A stretch of DNA of 37,157 nucleotides from Deltaproteobacteria bacterium (GTDB taxonomy: Bacteria; Desulfobacterota; Desulfobulbia; Desulfobulbales; VMSU01), in NCBI GenBank assembly GCA_021782655.1, contig JAJXUT010000014.1, positions 1 through 37,157 of the forward strand, given 5' to 3'. Positions within the stretch are counted from its first letter, which is position 1; every line of letters starts with the position of its first letter. The notes under the pieces were generated by a model. The model did no database searches and was not told where the DNA came from. It worked only from the letters and a program-made list of their open reading frames with translations. The translations under genes were made by a program, and so were the position numbers. Positions 29,605 through 35,880 of the stretch are shown piece by piece.

Positions 29605-30921
29605 TCAAATCAGCCGGCCAAAGACCTCCAGGCCCCTGACCTCTTCAATCCGCACCTCGACCACCTGGCCCGCCAGGCCAGGGTCGGCCTGAAAGCACAC
29701 CGGCACGTAGTTTTCGGCAAAGCCCCGCATCAGCTTACTCCGGCTGTCCCGGCCCTCGGCCAACACCCGCCTCAGGGCACCCTGCTGCCGGGCGTAAAAG
29801 CGCCGCCGCTTCTCCTGGCCCAAGGCCAAGAGCCGCGCCGCCCTCTCCTCCTTAACCGGCCCCGGCACCTGAGCGGGCATCAGGGCCGCCGGGGTACCAG
29901 GCCGCCGGGAGTAAGGGAAAACGTGCAGGTAGCTGATCTCCAGCCCCTCGATCAGCTTTACGGTCTGCTCAAACTCGGCCTCGCCCTCGCCAGGAAAGCC
30001 GGTTAGGACATCGAGCCCGATCGCCGCCTCGGGCAGCGTGGCCAGGATCATCTCCACCACCCGGACGAAATCGGCCACCGTATAGCGGCGGTTCATCCGC
30101 CGCAGCACCTCCGGGGCGCCGCTCTGCAGGGGCAGGTGGAAGTGGGGCATGAAGCAGTGTGCTTGGGCCATCAGCGCCAAGAGCTCCCGGGACACCTCGC
30201 CCGGCTCCAGGGAGCTGATCCGGTAACGCGGCCCCTCCGTCTGCCCGGCCAAGCGCCGCGCCAGGGACAGAAGGGAAGCGCGGGGGGTGAGGTCCTGGCC
30301 GTACATGCCGACATGGATGCCAGTCAGCACCAGCTCCCGGCAACCCGCCGCCGCCAGTTCCCTCGCCTTGGCCAACACCCGCTCCGGGGCCAGACTGCGG
30401 GCCCGGCCCCGGGCGTGGGGCACGATGCAGTAGCTGCAAAAGTTGTCGCAGCCGTCCTGAATCTTCAGATAGCCCCGGGTGCGGCCCGGCAGTCGCCGGG
30501 CCGGCAGGTCGTCGAATAGCCGCTTAGCGCAGAGGTCACTTGCGCACGGCCCCCGCCCGTCGCCCCCCTCGGCCAGGGCGAGAGGCACCAGGAGGTGCTT
30601 GCTGTCGTTGCCCACCAGACAGACCTCCCGGCCCGCCATCTCCCGCACCTCCGGCCCCGCCACCTGGGCGTAACAGCCGGTGACCACCACCTTACCCTCC
30701 GGGTTGGCCCGCAAGGCCCGGCGGATGAGCTGGCGGGACTGGGCCCCGGCCTTGGCGGTCACCGCGCAGGTGTTGATCACGTAGATGTCCGCCGCCGCCC
30801 CGAAGGGCACCACCTTAAGCCCCCGCTCCTCGAAACCGGCGCTAATGGCGGCGGATTCGCACTGGTTGACCTTACAGCCCAAGGTGGTAACGGCGACGGT
30901 TCGAAGGGATGCTTCAGACAT
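29605..30921 (-). CDS. mtaB: MtaB-type tRNA methylthiotransferase
   Basis: The ATG at 30921 was chosen because the family N-terminus follows at once (VAVTTLGCKVNQCES); the longer open frame above is shadow of the PAS gene. The 438-aa protein has the UPF0004 domain with its three cysteines, the radical-SAM motif CDNFCSYC (about 156-163) and a C-terminal TRAM-like domain (about 375-438). It should methylthiolate t6A37 to ms2t6A in tRNAs reading ANN codons, using SAM and two 4Fe-4S clusters. It belongs to a run of minus-strand genes with mnmA upstream and cinA-recA downstream. The ribosome site is weak. Confidence 0.93.
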   Translation of the reverse strand: MSEASLRTVAVTTLGCKVNQCESAAISAGFEERGLKVVPFGAAADIYVINTCAVTAKAGAQSRQLIRRALRANPEGKVVVTGCYAQVAGPEVREMAGREVCLVGNDSKHLLVPLALAEGGDGRGPCASDLCAKRLFDDLPARRLPGRTRGYLKIQDGCDNFCSYCIVPHARGRARSLAPERVLAKARELAAAGCRELVLTGIHVGMYGQDLTPRASLLSLARRLAGQTEGPRYRISSLEPGEVSRELLALMAQAHCFMPHFHLPLQSGAPEVLRRMNRRYTVADFVRVVEMILATLPEAAIGLDVLTGFPGEGEAEFEQTVKLIEGLEISYLHVFPYSRRPGTPAALMPAQVPGPVKEERAARLLALGQEKRRRFYARQQGALRRVLAEGRDSRSKLMRGFAENYVPVCFQADPGLAGQVVEVRIEEVRGLEVFGRLI

Positions 30922-30958
30922 GGGGGAAGGCGTCACGGAGGATCTCCGCGGCTCGGGC

Positions 30959-31672
30959 TCAGTCCGTCTTCCCCTTCCGGGAGACGACGAACTGCGGATA
31001 GAGGGTTTTGGCGCAATCCGGGCAGATGCCGTGGGTGAAGTCGGCATTGGTGTGGGTGCGGAGGTAATCTTCAAGCTGCGTCCAATAGCCCTGATCGTCA
31101 CGAATCTTCTTGCAAGAGGCGCAGATCGGCAGGTATCCCTCCAGGGCCTTGACCCTGGCCAGGGCCTCCTTAAGGTCGGCAATCAACGCCTCCCGCTCCG
31201 CCTCCAACCTCTTACGCTCGGAGATGTCCCGGAAGATGCCCAAAAGCTCCACCGCCCGACCATCCTCGAACTTGGGGGTGCAGCGGCCCTCAACCATAAT
31301 CCTGCGCCCGTCCTTGGTGATAAAGATGGTCTCGGTGGGCGGGGTACGCTCACCGCGCATCAGGGAGGTGAAGATCCCCTGGCACTTGCCGCCGCAACTG
31401 GGATCAACGATATCGAAAATCCGCAGCCGCCTGGCCTCCTCCTCGGAATACCCCAGGGTCTGCCGCCAAAGGCTGTTGACATAGAGGATGCGGCCCTCGC
31501 TGTCCAAGGAGTGCACCAGGTCGTTGGCCTGCTCGAAGACCTCACGGTAGCGCCGCTCGCTCTGGCGCAGGGTCTCGATCTCCGCCTGCTGGCAAGCGAC
31601 TTGCCGTTCAAGGGCCGCCAGCCTCTCCCCCGCGCTCTCATCGGTCTGCATCTCAGGCGCCTTAGTCTTCAA
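30959..31672 (-). CDS. PAS-domain protein with C-terminal cysteine cluster
   Basis: This 237-aa soluble protein has a short coiled coil (about 15-40) and one PAS domain (about 42-160; YREVFEQANDLVHSLDSEGR, LGYSEEEA, IFRDISERKRLEAE). A second helix leads to a C-terminal module with LPICASCKKIRDD, GYWTQLEDYL and THGICPDCAKTLYP. No histidine-kinase, GGDEF or DNA-binding output domain is present. The two CxxC pairs look like a metal-binding site, and the same tail is common at the ends of PAS sensor proteins in this lineage. The ATG overlaps the mnmA stop by 4 bases, so it is translated with a tRNA-thiolation enzyme. Function is unknown; a redox or metal sensor acting through protein contacts is possible. 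Confidence 0.85.
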   Translation of the reverse strand: MKTKAPEMQTDESAGERLAALERQVACQQAEIETLRQSERRYREVFEQANDLVHSLDSEGRILYVNSLWRQTLGYSEEEARRLRIFDIVDPSCGGKCQGIFTSLMRGERTPPTETIFITKDGRRIMVEGRCTPKFEDGRAVELLGIFRDISERKRLEAEREALIADLKEALARVKALEGYLPICASCKKIRDDQGYWTQLEDYLRTHTNADFTHGICPDCAKTLYPQFVVSRKGKTD

Positions 31673-32724
31673 ATAATCTCCCCGCCGCCGACCACCTCGT
31701 CCTCCCGGTAAAGGACGGCGAACTGACCAGGGGTGACGGCCCGCTGGGGCTCGGCGAAGCGGATCTGCAATCCCCCCGCCCCCCGGCTGACCACGGCGAC
31801 CGCGGGCCGGTGCCGGTAGCGGATCTTGACCATGAACTCCTGGGGCAAAAACGGCTCCTGGCCGGAAACCCAGTTCATCTCGGCCACGGCCAGGGCCTCA
31901 CGCCAGAGATCGGACTCCTTGCCGATAAGCACCTGGTTCCTGGCCGCGTCCAGAGCCACGACGTAGAACGGGGTGACATCGGGTATCCCCAAGCCCCGCC
32001 GCTGGCCCACGGTATAGTGGCAGAGCCCCCGGTGCCAGCCCCGGCCTTCGCCGCTTAAGGTGACGAACTCGCCGGGTGGGCAAGGCGAATCGGCGAAAAA
32101 ATCTGCCATCTCCCGGCCCTTAAGAAAACAGACATCCTGGCTCTCCGGCCCGTGCAGGCCGGAGAGCCCCATCTCTTCCGCCCGCCGGCGCACCTTGGCC
32201 TTGCTCATCCCGCCCAGCGGCAACTCCAGACCGGCCAGATGCCCTTGAGTCAAACCGGCCAGGAAGTAGGACTGATCCTTGCCGGCATCAAGCCCGGCGA
32301 GCAGCCGGATCAGGCCATCCTGGCCAGGCTCGACGCGGGCGTAATGGCCGGTGGCCAGGACGGGGAACCCCAGTCCTTGAGCCGTCTCCCGCAGCAGGCC
32401 AAACTTGATCGTCCGGTTGCAGACCAGGCAAGGATTGGGGGTGCGGCCACGCCGGTAGGAGCTTACGAAGTAATCCAGCACCCGCTGCTTAAATTCAGCC
32501 CGCAGATCGACCACCACCAGCGGCAGGCCAAGCCGCCGGGCCAGCCGCTGGGCCGGCTCGGCCTGCTGCGGGCCATCCTCGGGGGCGATAAGCATGAAGA
32601 CCCCAGCCACCTCCAGCCCCCGGCTCGCCAGCAGGGCGGCGGCCACCGCGCTATCCACCCCGCCGCTCATCGCCACCATGACCCGCCCGCCGGCGGCGGG
32701 ACTTGCTGTCCGTATCCCAGTCAT
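31669..32724 (-). CDS. mnmA: tRNA 2-thiouridylase MnmA
   Basis: This protein of about 351 aa converts U34 to s2U34 in tRNA-Lys, -Glu and -Gln. It has the PP-loop AMSGGVDSAVAA and the two catalytic cysteines in RTPNPCLVCNRTIKF and ESQDVCFLKGREMADFF, along with TGHYARV and VGQRRGLGI. The ATG at 32724 was preferred to a GTG 21 codons upstream, because the extra residues do not resemble the family and include a GGCAAC/GTTGCC hairpin that fits a leader. The PAS gene overlaps its end, and mtaB follows after that, so this is a tRNA-modification operon. It diverges from the U32 gene. Confidence 0.93.
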   Translation of the reverse strand: MTGIRTASPAAGGRVMVAMSGGVDSAVAAALLASRGLEVAGVFMLIAPEDGPQQAEPAQRLARRLGLPLVVVDLRAEFKQRVLDYFVSSYRRGRTPNPCLVCNRTIKFGLLRETAQGLGFPVLATGHYARVEPGQDGLIRLLAGLDAGKDQSYFLAGLTQGHLAGLELPLGGMSKAKVRRRAEEMGLSGLHGPESQDVCFLKGREMADFFADSPCPPGEFVTLSGEGRGWHRGLCHYTVGQRRGLGIPDVTPFYVVALDAARNQVLIGKESDLWREALAVAEMNWVSGQEPFLPQEFMVKIRYRHRPAVAVVSRGAGGLQIRFAEPQRAVTPGQFAVLYREDEVVGGGEII

Positions 32725-32800
32725 CCTAGTGCCCGCCCCCTGGCGGCAACTTGGTTGCCCTTTAGGATAAAAAGGGTTAACAGCCACCGTTGGGGCATGG

Positions 32801-32824
32801 TAAAAGGTAATCGCTAAAAGGTAA
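32801..32824 (+). repeat. Direct repeat TAAAAGGTAA x2 in the mnmA/U32 divergent region
   Basis: The 10-base sequence TAAAAGGTAA occurs exactly twice, at 32801-32810 and 32815-32824, with a 14-base period. A related TAAAAAGGGTTAA lies at 32768-32780. All sit between mnmA (minus) and the U32 gene (plus), so they could be regulator sites acting on either gene. Confidence 0.5.
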
Positions 32825-32854
32825 AGAGATTATCTCGTTCAAGGAAAAACAAGG

Positions 32855-34180
32855 ATGACGACCACTGATTGTGCGGGCAAACCGGGAGTCAAGCCCGTCT
32901 TGCCGGAACTGCTGGCCCCCGCCGGCAGCCTGGACAAACTGAAAATCGCGGTGCATTACGGGGCGGACGCCGTCTATCTGAGCGGCGGCCCCTACAGCTT
33001 ACGCTCCCGGGCGGCCCTGTCGTCCGAGGAGCTGGCCGCAGGCGTGGCCTACGCCCACCGGCACGGGGTCAAGGCCTACGCCACCGTCAACATCCTGGCC
33101 CACAACCGCGACCTGAACGGCCTGCCAGAGCATCTCGACCTCCTGCGCCAAACCAGGGTCGACGCCATAATCGTCGCCGACCCCGGCGTCTTCTCCCTGG
33201 CCCGGCGCCTGGCGCCGGAGATGCCCATCCACCTAAGCACCCAGGCCAACGTCACCAACCTGGAGAGCGCCCGCTTCTGGCAGGCGCAAGGGGTAAGGCG
33301 TCTGAATCTGGCCCGGGAACTTGGCCTTTCCGAAATCTCCGAGATCCGCCGGGCGGTGGGCCTCGAGCTGGAGATCTTCGTGCACGGGGCGCTTTGCGTC
33401 TCCTACTCGGGGCGCTGCGCCTTGAGTCTCTACTTAAATGGCCGCGACGCCAACCTCGGCCAGTGCACCCACCCTTGCCGCTACCGTTACGCCCTGATGG
33501 AAGAGCGGCGTCCGGGACAGTACTTCCCGGTGGAGGAGGACGCTCGCGGCGCCTACATTTTCAACAGCAAGGACCTCTGCCTGCTACATCGGCTGCCGGA
33601 CTTGATCGCCGCCGGGGCCGATTCCATCAAGATCGAGGGTCGGATGAAAAGCGCCTACTACGTGGGCGCCACCGTCCGCCTCTACCGGACGGCCCTGGAC
33701 ATCATCTCCCGGAGGCTCGATCAGGAGGGGGCCGAGGCCTTGGCCGCCCTTAGCCTACCGTCCGCCTTTGCCGAGGAGTTGACCAAGATCGGCTCCCGGG
33801 GCTATACAGAAAACTTTCTTCACCACCCGCCAGGGGCGGAAGACATGCAGCACCAAGGCAGCGACTACCAGCCCACCCACGTCCCGGCGGGAATCATCCG
33901 GCGGGCCGGCAACCCGCCCCTGGTGGAGGCAAGAAGCTCCATCCTCCTGGGCGACGGCCTTGAATACCTAGCCCGGGATCTAAAAAACGCCCGGGCCGTG
34001 GTCACCGGGATGACCAACGCCGACGGCGAGGCCATCCTCCGAGCCAACCCCGGGGCGCTGATCCAGCTCGCCACCGACCCGCCCCTGAACGAGGTCGCGG
34101 AGTTCGGCCTGCTCCGCAAGGAGCCGCCATCAACCGACGCCCCCGAGGCCAGACTTGCCGGTGGCACGCAAAATGCTTAA
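32855..34180 (+). CDS. U32 peptidase-family protein (TrhP/YegQ-like)
   Basis: This 441-aa protein is a U32 family member. Its signature ELEIFVHGALCVSYSGRC lies at about 172-189, followed by LGQCTHPCRYRYAL, giving the four-cysteine iron-sulfur arrangement of the TrhP/RlhA group. LLAPAGSLDKLKIAVHYGAD near the N-terminus and KIEGRMKSAYYV in the middle are also typical. Characterised relatives hydroxylate tRNA U34 or 23S rRNA with prephenate. Protease activity was an early and probably wrong label. Next to mnmA and mtaB, a tRNA-hydroxylation role would fit. The gene is plus strand, divergent from mnmA, and its end contains the sigma-54 promoter of the next gene. Confidence 0.9.
   Translation: MTTTDCAGKPGVKPVLPELLAPAGSLDKLKIAVHYGADAVYLSGGPYSLRSRAALSSEELAAGVAYAHRHGVKAYATVNILAHNRDLNGLPEHLDLLRQTRVDAIIVADPGVFSLARRLAPEMPIHLSTQANVTNLESARFWQAQGVRRLNLARELGLSEISEIRRAVGLELEIFVHGALCVSYSGRCALSLYLNGRDANLGQCTHPCRYRYALMEERRPGQYFPVEEDARGAYIFNSKDLCLLHRLPDLIAAGADSIKIEGRMKSAYYVGATVRLYRTALDIISRRLDQEGAEALAALSLPSAFAEELTKIGSRGYTENFLHHPPGAEDMQHQGSDYQPTHVPAGIIRRAGNPPLVEARSSILLGDGLEYLARDLKNARAVVTGMTNADGEAILRANPGALIQLATDPPLNEVAEFGLLRKEPPSTDAPEARLAGGTQNA
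34162..34177 (+). promoter_or_regulatory. Predicted sigma-54 (-24/-12) promoter
   Basis: TGGCACG (34162-34168), four bases, then ATGCT (34173-34177) matches the sigma-54 consensus TGGCACG-N4-TTGCW with one mismatch, and the obligatory GG-N10-GC spacing is exact. It overlaps the last codons of the U32 gene. Transcription would begin near 34188, about 50 bases before the rod-like gene, whose AAGGAGA ribosome site follows. Sigma-54 control of rod and hook genes is common in flagellated proteobacteria. Confidence 0.65.
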
Positions 34181-34237
34181 TTTTTCGACAGAGGCGCCGG
34201 GCATCCCGGCCACCCCCAACCCGCAAGGAGACCTGCC

Positions 34238-34591
34238 ATGCTGATGGGAATCGACTCCGGACTCTCCGCCCTGATGGCCATTCAGACCCGCGTCCAGTCC
34301 ACGGCCAACAACACCGCCAACGTCAACACCGAAGGCTTCAAGAAGACCCGGGTGACCTTCAACGAGGGCGCGGGGCAGACGGTTACCGCCAACGTCCAGA
34401 CGGTGAACACCCCCGGCCCCCTGGTTTCCGAACCCACCCAGAACGGCGAGGCCTTGGTCGAGCAGTCAAACGTCGATCTGGCCGAGGAACTGCCCACCAT
34501 GATGATCGATCGCCGGACCTTTGAAGCCAACATCAAGATGGTGCAGACCCAAGACGAGATGCTAGGCAGCCTACTGGACATCAAGGGATAA
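34238..34591 (+). CDS. Minimal flagellar rod-like protein (FlgB/FlgC/FlgG family)
   Basis: This 117-aa protein holds only the two conserved ends of flagellar axial proteins. The N-terminal rod domain (residues 1-40) has GIDSGLSALMAIQTRVQSTA and NNTANVNTEGFKKTRV. The C-terminal domain (about 75-117) has QSNVDLAEELPTMMIDRRTFEAN (in part) and IKMVQTQDEMLGSLLDIKG. The middle is about 35 residues. FlgC is slightly longer (about 135-150 aa) and contains its own middle; this looks like a pared-down paralogue. It is not in a flagellar cluster. A sigma-54 promoter and an AAGGAGA ribosome site lie in front. It may form part of the rod or be an accessory axial protein. It ends 5 bases from the convergent pyrC. 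Confidence 0.85.
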   Translation: MLMGIDSGLSALMAIQTRVQSTANNTANVNTEGFKKTRVTFNEGAGQTVTANVQTVNTPGPLVSEPTQNGEALVEQSNVDLAEELPTMMIDRRTFEANIKMVQTQDEMLGSLLDIKG

Positions 34592-34596
34592 GCCCC

Positions 34597-35880
34597 CTAA
34601 CGCCGCAGCACCACCCTCCCCCCGACGATGACCAACACCGCCTGACCGGTGAACCGCCAATCCAGGAAGGGCGAATTCCTGCTCTTGGACACCACATCTG
34701 TAATCCCGTAGGTAAACTCCCGCTCCGGATCGATAACCGTGACATCCGCCGGCCCACCCTCAGCCAGGGTGCCGCCCGGCACCCCCAAGATGCGGGCGGG
34801 ATTGACCGACATCAGCTCCACCAGCCGGGCCGGGCCAATCGCCCCGTCGCGCACCAGCCGCAGGGCCAGGGGCAAGGAGGTCTCCAGCCCGATGATGCCG
34901 TTGGCGGCCCGGTCGAACTCCACCTCCTTTTCCAGCTCGCCGTGCGGGGCGTGATCCGAGGCGATGGCGTCGATGGTGCCGTCCTTGAGCCCCTTGATAA
35001 CCGCATCGACATCCGCTTTTAGGCGCAGGGGCGGATTCATCTTGGCCCGGGTGTCGTAGCGGCCCACCGCCTCCTCGGTCAGGGTGAAATAGTGGGGCGC
35101 GGTCTCAGCAGTCACCGGCCAGCCCTGGGCCTTGGCCCAGCGAATCAGGGCCACCGATTCCCGGGTGCTGATGTGGGCCAGGTGCAGACGGTGGCCGGTG
35201 AGGGCGGCAAGCGCCAGGTCCCGGTACACCATGATCGACTCGGCGGCGTTGGGAATGCCGCCCAGGCCCAGACGGGTCGAGAGCTCGCCCTCGTTCATGG
35301 CCCCATGCTGGCTTAAGCTCAGTTCCTCGCAGTGCGAGATCACCGGCAGATCGAAGTTCCCGGCATACTCCAAGGCGCGGCGCATCATCTGGCTACTCAC
35401 CACCGGCCGGCCGTCGTCGCTGACCGCCACCGCCCCGGCCCGGCGCATCTCACCAAACTCCGCCAACTGCTCGCCCTGGCTCGACTTGCTGATCGCCCCC
35501 ACCGGATAGACCCGCACCAGGGCCTCCCGGGCCCGATCCGCCACTAGGGCGATCCCGGCCTCGGCATCCAAAACCGGCTTGGTGTTGGGCATACAGGCCA
35601 CCGCCGTGAAACCGCCCGCCGCCGCTGCCTGGGCGCCGCTGACGATGGTCTCCTTGTACTCCTCGCCCGGCTCCCGCAGGTGGACGTGCATGTCGATTAA
35701 GCCCGGCATGACCCACTTGCCGGAGAGATCGATCCGCTCCACCTCCGCCGGCAGCCGGTCGTAATCCACCGCCAGCCGGCAGACCCCATCGAGCAAAAGC
35801 AGGCTGGACACCTGATCCACCCCGCGCACCGGGTCGATAACCCGACCGTTTTCCAGCAGAATCGGATGAGCCCCCCGCAT
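34597..35880 (-). CDS. pyrC: Dihydroorotase (class I)
   Basis: This 427-aa amidohydrolase closes N-carbamoyl-aspartate to dihydroorotate in pyrimidine synthesis. The zinc motif DMHVHLREPG lies at 63-72, followed by CMPNTKP (substrate-binding Asn), AVSDDGRPV with the bridging Asp of class I enzymes, ISHCEE, HLAHISTRES and SDHAPHG. Length and motifs fit the class I type that often associates with aspartate carbamoyltransferase. Its ATG shares bases with the pyrB stop (TGATG), so the two are translationally coupled and may form a complex. Confidence 0.96.
   Translation of the reverse strand: MRGAHPILLENGRVIDPVRGVDQVSSLLLLDGVCRLAVDYDRLPAEVERIDLSGKWVMPGLIDMHVHLREPGEEYKETIVSGAQAAAAGGFTAVACMPNTKPVLDAEAGIALVADRAREALVRVYPVGAISKSSQGEQLAEFGEMRRAGAVAVSDDGRPVVSSQMMRRALEYAGNFDLPVISHCEELSLSQHGAMNEGELSTRLGLGGIPNAAESIMVYRDLALAALTGHRLHLAHISTRESVALIRWAKAQGWPVTAETAPHYFTLTEEAVGRYDTRAKMNPPLRLKADVDAVIKGLKDGTIDAIASDHAPHGELEKEVEFDRAANGIIGLETSLPLALRLVRDGAIGPARLVELMSVNPARILGVPGGTLAEGGPADVTVIDPEREFTYGITDVVSKSRNSPFLDWRFTGQAVLVIVGGRVVLRR

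Follow-up and report, generated by a model that had tools for sequence, protein, structure and literature searches.

Many flagellated Desulfobacterota encode a conserved family of very small axial proteins, nameless and with no known job, that has the look of an extra component or regulator of flagella and not of a broken gene. The member analysed here is a 117-residue protein encoded in a 37,157 nt stretch of DNA (the window: contig JAJXUT010000014.1 of the Deltaproteobacteria bacterium assembly GCA_021782655.1), and we give about an even chance to its being an accessory flagellar axial protein that would be exported and placed in the axis beyond the proximal rod. The flagellar axis is usually regarded as having a complete parts list (FliE, FlgB, FlgC, FlgF, FlgG, FlgE, FlgK, FlgL, flagellin, and caps); in the literature on second, short, or orphan FlgE proteins and related subjects we found no description of the family.

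The mini axial gene and its surroundings

The gene has an ATG start with a Shine-Dalgarno-like AAGGAG 6-7 nt upstream, and its product reads MLMGIDSGLSALMAIQ...DEMLGSLLDIKG. The relevant features of the window are these:

29605-31182, minus strand: MtaB, a tRNA-modification gene upstream of the mini axial gene
31669-32787, minus strand: MnmA, a tRNA-modification gene upstream of the mini axial gene
32855-34180, plus strand: U32-family gene of the TrhP-like tRNA hydroxylase family (Pfam PF01136, partial NCBIfam TrhP match)
34162-34177, plus strand: sigma-54 (-24/-12) box TGGCACGCAAAATGCT, with GG at 34163-34164 and GC at 34175-34176
34224-34237, plus strand: leader with the Shine-Dalgarno-like AAGGAG, from the sequence
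34238-34591, plus strand: mini axial gene, 117 aa (Pfam, alignments, AlphaFold2, Foldseek)
34597-35880, minus strand: pyrC, convergent, ending 5 nt from the mini axial gene and kept as its neighbour in relatives

The sequence-only reading of this DNA had placed the gene away from any flagellar cluster, beside a tRNA-modification gene and pyrC, and so it lies: U32/TrhP-like, MnmA, and MtaB genes are upstream, and convergent pyrC and then pyrB are downstream. Positions 29605-34180 hold three consecutive tRNA-modification genes (MtaB, MnmA, and TrhP-like U32).

Both ends of the axial superfamily are present, an N-terminal Flg_bb_rod domain at residues 5-35 (30.0 bits against a Pfam cut-off of 20.7) and a C-terminal Flg_bbr_C domain at residues 74-114 (52.2 bits against 23), and the protein falls far under the cut-off of each of the full-length NCBIfam models for FlgG, FlgE, FlgC, FlgF, and FlgB. 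The earlier description of a protein retaining only two helical ends is right about the ends but not about the middle, where residues 37-75 form a conserved, predicted four-stranded beta region.

Predicted fold and relation to known axial proteins

An AlphaFold2 model made with a 96-sequence alignment (pLDDT 84.7, pTM 0.68) was used in preference to an earlier 30-sequence run (pLDDT 60, weak matches), which we rejected. The model has a helix at residues 2-27, strands at 37-43, 49-55, 62-67, and 70-75, and a helix at 81-116, corresponding to an N-terminal D0 helix, a beta middle with a conserved TPGP turn, and a C-terminal D0 helix; Foldseek matches to rod and hook chains agree with a beta domain enclosed by D0 helices. 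Comparison of the model with the rod structure, as the sequence-only reading had proposed, gave Salmonella proximal-rod chains of 127-132 residues (7cg0, 7bin) and the FlgC chain 8z5s_g as best matches (TM 0.82-0.86); the 7cg0 and 7bin chains are probably FlgC, judging partly from their length. The top FlgC-type match (TM 0.84/0.76, rmsd 2.7) has the same type of fold, and in length too the mini protein is of FlgC type (117 aa versus 144 aa for the FlgC of the source genome).

The ends suggest a different lineage. In a sequence search of solved structures they are closest to FlgG and FlgE, and a tree built from 77 proteins on their D0 ends places the family as sister to FlgE and separate from FlgG, FlgF, and FlgC; support is moderate (82/79), and the FlgC and FlgF branches are long. 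Taking the known proteins in turn: i) the mini axial protein is close to FlgC in general architecture and size, both having D0 helices and a small beta domain (28% identity across 128 columns), and aligns with the FlgC profile over its full length, but reaches only 32.8 bits against the TIGR01395 cut-off of 102.1, lies outside the flgBC-fliE operon of a genome with a separate flgC, and does not group with FlgC by D0; ii) it resembles FlgE in its moderately supported D0 grouping, in its C-terminal 60 residues (42% identical to the FlgE profile), and in having relatives with an FlgE body at the same locus, but lacks D1, D2, and any outer, hook-surface domain, with about 40 residues between its ends, and differs further in lacking a gate-recognition motif, in being encoded by a solitary gene, and in scoring far under the NCBIfam cut-offs; iii) among solved structures FlgG is nearest by sequence (1.6e-20, both ends), but the mini protein is about 140 residues shorter, has no D1, falls in a separate clade, and is encoded in a genome that has its own flgG; and iv) FliE, a short axial protein at the rod base, is likewise very small and without outer domains, but belongs to another sequence family and is itself encoded in the flgBC operon of the source genome.

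Flagellar genes of the source genome

Flagellar genes of the source assembly (2.41 Mb in 140 contigs, 92% complete) were named from their sequences and matches. One cluster, behind an NtrC-type regulator, contains flgB (137 aa), flgC (144 aa), fliE, fliF, fliG, and fliI; a second contains flgF, flgG, flgA, flgH, flgI, flgK, and flgL; flgE is on a third contig; and both RpoN and FliA are encoded. Two features of the first cluster are:

L122 4781-6217: NtrC-type response regulator directly upstream of flgB, a candidate activator of sigma-54 flagellar promoters
L122 6780-7214 (contig C8): the true flgC, in the flgB-flgC-fliE cluster

Identity of the mini axial protein with the genome's FlgC, which would have made it an ordinary rod protein, was ruled out: a separate flgC stands in a complete flgB-flgC-fliE-fliFG operon, and flgF, flgG, flgE, and flgK are present besides. 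The genome also encodes two divergent flagellin-like proteins (L228 and L229; contigs C107 and C108) away from the main flagellin, one of them on a small contig.

Distribution and conservation

Orthologues occur in 36 of 58 relatives, all 36 with FliF, and in none of the 12 genomes lacking FliF (p 7e-7). The search across Desulfobacterota suggested by the sequence-only reading gave the same association with flagella: in a phylum sample of 395 genomes, 90 carry the mini axial gene, 240 carry FliF, and 81 carry both (p 8e-12), and 87 of the 90 carriers have at least one other flagellar marker. Among the nine carriers without FliF, five have FlhA and one has flagellin, so these six genomes are probably incomplete; in the other three (G278, G099, and G287) no flagellar marker was found. 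G278 is estimated to be 100% complete and has the mini axial gene (L168 9805-10185, minus strand), yet FliF, FlhA, flagellin, and any further rod-type protein were all missing from it; either its flagella were lost or the assembly misses flagellar genes. The presence of the gene in only about a third of the flagellated genomes of the phylum sample (81/240) marks it as accessory: a flagellum can be built without it.

A scan of named genomes gave 80 loci, mostly in Desulfobulbales and their relatives with a few in Desulfobacterales. Two copies per genome were seen in SZUA-615 (L111 and L112) and in G133 (contigs C389 and C59). Orthologue length is nearly constant (111-120 aa in nearly all, mostly 117-118); conservation extends beyond the ends to the middle, as ..VT..V..V.TPGP.V.EQT..G..LVE.SNVDL; and dN/dS is about 0.1 for close orthologue pairs with enough changes (0.02/0.14, 0.06/0.67, 0.17/1.72), indicating purifying selection.

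A frequent arrangement, in the order of the window, is dnaG-rpoD-U32-gene-pyrC-pyrB-lepB-pilM.., and among named loci a U32 gene lies within 1.5 kb upstream in 38 of 70 and a convergent PyrC gene within 1.5 kb downstream in 37 of 71. U32 and pyrC-pyrB are neighbours of the gene in the window as in relatives, though the U32 gene there, at 441 aa, is shorter and is preceded by mnmA; distant family members adjoin other housekeeping genes. Throughout about 100 neighbourhoods the mini axial gene is solitary, with no other gene matching reference rod, hook, or basal-body proteins. Phylum-wide conservation, low dN/dS, constant length, solitary location, and the flagellar-type promoters described below all argue for a functional gene and bear out the proposal that this is a regulated, separately expressed member of the axial superfamily and no stray fragment.

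Sigma-54 and sigma-28 promoters

The claim that the gene has its own -24/-12 promoter in the end of the U32 gene was well founded. A near-perfect box, TGGCACG-CAAA-ATGCT, lies within the last codons of the U32-family gene, 60 nt upstream of the mini axial ATG; at 16.7 of a maximum 18.9 bits it is the best match in the window, and transcription from it would be expected to start near 34188. The strict pattern TGGCACRNNNNWTGCW has three matches in the 2.41-Mb genome (one for the reversed-pattern control), and this box is the only one of the three ahead of a recognisable flagellar gene. Three congeners (L008, L009, and L018) have a box at the same position (16.7, 10.2, and 10.1 bits). A suitably spaced box conserved in the genus, in an organism with RpoN, is what a sigma-54-dependent gene should have, and boxes are also found in the source genome at flgF, flgI, and flgB (16.4, 15.6, and 10.3 bits). 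The stretch around its main flagellin contains a putative sigma-28-like box (16.2 bits).

A sigma-54 box precedes 21 of 95 non-identical orthologues and a sigma-28 box (TAAA..GCCGATAA) precedes 25, so that 45 have at least one, compared with 13 of 308 regions upstream of neighbouring genes; the p value of 1e-21 is indicative, since the scoring matrices were built by hand from what is known of the consensus, thresholds were picked after a first look, and related sequences are non-independent. The use of sigma-28 in some lineages and sigma-54 elsewhere implies that the gene has moved between two classes of flagellar regulation. The mini axial genes of G050 and G043 (L044 and L057) have sigma-28 boxes of 18.1 and 15.3 bits, and strong sigma-54 boxes (15.5-16.1 bits) stand at flgF of both genomes and at flgB of G043; a late sigma-28 promoter where rod operons use sigma-54, as in several lineages, argues against a part needed during rod building. 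Flagellar operons of Geobacter and Desulfovibrio are RpoN-controlled (PMC2725144, PMC4641369), and none of the passages found in these studies names a mini axial gene. We infer that the mini axial gene is regulated in the cell as a flagellar gene.

Export signals

The gate-recognition motif has the form FxxxPhi. Early rod and hook subunits dock at FlhB through this motif, around residues 36-43 (PMC8983047). Counted on ungapped sequences, it is present at the corresponding position in 22 of 22 FlgE, FlgG, and FlgF proteins of relatives, in 1 of 107 mini proteins, and in none of the 4 full-bodied and intermediate forms described below. Its loss from 106 of 107 members makes export of the family by the usual early route doubtful. 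In the C-terminal export signal of Salmonella FlgE the key residues are I376 and R380 (PMC10936197), and an arginine positionally matching R380 (R93) is retained in over 90% of the first alignment. Judged from these sequences, export of the mini axial protein probably differs from that of standard rod and hook subunits.

Full-bodied relatives at the same locus

In three relatives (G015, G016, and G027) the identical locus, dnaG-rpoD-U32-X-pyrC-pyrB-lepB-pilM, holds a protein X of 493, 774, and 493 aa, respectively, and each genome also has a normal flgE elsewhere. A shorter form is found in G033 at a different genomic place:

L117 7443-8924, minus strand: full-bodied FlgE-like protein of G015
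L118 6504-7985, plus strand: full-bodied FlgE-like protein of G027
L119 6477-8801, plus strand: full-bodied FlgE-like protein of G016
L120 7072-7923, minus strand: 283-aa intermediate form of G033, with part of the hook body

The middle of X matches the FlgE of its own genome at about 57-64% identity, and its C-terminal end is closer to the mini proteins (mean 57-62% identity) than to FlgE (47-53%). An FlgE-type body between family-type ends at the same locus suggests that such ends can work in a hook-like subunit. In the tree the full-bodied and intermediate forms are nested as one clade inside the mini proteins (100/99), which suggests that a mini protein acquired a hook body and not that a body was lost; AU tests of the direction of evolution did not reject the alternatives (p 0.195, 0.306), so body gain is favoured, not shown.

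Discussion

As an accessory axial protein, the product would be a compact subunit in which the two D0 helices enclose a small beta hairpin domain, without outer D1 or D2, joining D0 sequence of the FlgE lineage to a FlgC-like overall shape. It would be transcribed alone within the flagellar regulon, by sigma-54 in the source organism and by sigma-28 or sigma-54 elsewhere; would most likely be exported through the flagellar secretion channel; and would join the axial structure beyond the proximal rod, at the hook, the hook-filament junction, or the tip, where a body-less subunit could serve as a junction or filler piece. Incorporation into the axis is what we infer from the family, its fold, and its flagellar associations.

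Among structural options a rod filler is the less likely. The sequence-only reading had called the product a rod protein, possibly a filler or adaptor, which would put it in the proximal or distal rod beside FlgB, FlgC, FlgF, and FlgG; we consider this improbable. Its fold and size are indeed nearest FlgC, and in the source organism its box is of the sigma-54 type, like those of the flgB and flgF operons, but the genome already has a full rod set, the D0 helices group (with moderate support) with FlgE and not with rod proteins, the gate-recognition motif is missing, and in G050 and G043 a sigma-28 mini gene accompanies sigma-54 rod operons, with late sigma-28 promoters in several lineages; "rod protein" is too specific a label. 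The missing motif could instead mean that the protein stays in the cytoplasm as a regulator or decoy, binding export components or other subunits and tuning early export or the hook-to-filament export switch. The motif is gone from 106 of 107 members and from the full-bodied relatives, but the hydrophobic N-terminal stretch and the conserved C-terminal arginine are kept; Salmonella hook subunits with unbalanced export signals block export (PMC8983047, PMC10936197), and the family tolerates sigma-54 and sigma-28 timing alike. We nevertheless think it unlikely, if deserving of serious attention: purifying selection acts on the whole D0 and beta fold, which seems in excess of what a decoy requires, and the relatives that carry an FlgE body at this locus look structural.

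A non-flagellar assembly, also raised in the earlier reading, or co-option for some other surface function might be suspected for a solitary gene that lies a few genes from pilMNOPQ in one synteny group and persists in G278, G099, and G287. The pil genes are several genes off and do not adjoin the gene in distant lineages, even distant family members often have flagellar sigma boxes, and all but three of the phylum-sample carriers show another flagellar marker, so that we regard this as quite improbable; a link to pili, limited as the synteny is to one group of relatives, was rejected. Finally, FlgE-like D0 ends with the middle removed are what a decaying flgE or flgC duplicate retained by chance might leave behind, an explanation made very improbable by constant length, a conserved TPGP middle, dN/dS of about 0.1, occurrence in many families, and dedicated promoters.

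Extending the accessory axial protein to the whole family, we tentatively suggest, as a plausible reading somewhat less secure than the placement itself, that these proteins form an unrecognised axial class: body-less, of FlgE lineage, without an FlhB docking motif, under flagellar control (often with the late sigma-28 genes), and Desulfobacterota-wide, which would modify the finished hook or filament, or its export, and which in one lineage may have given rise to a second hook protein by regaining a hook body. A conserved extra axial member with only the inner D0 and a hairpin would test what D0 alone does in assembly, and an axial member without its relatives' docking motif would test what determines export class. 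Thanks to the sigma-54/sigma-28 swap and the hook-bodied relatives at the same locus, the question can be tested in cultured Desulfogranum, Desulfobulbus, and Desulfatibacillum species.
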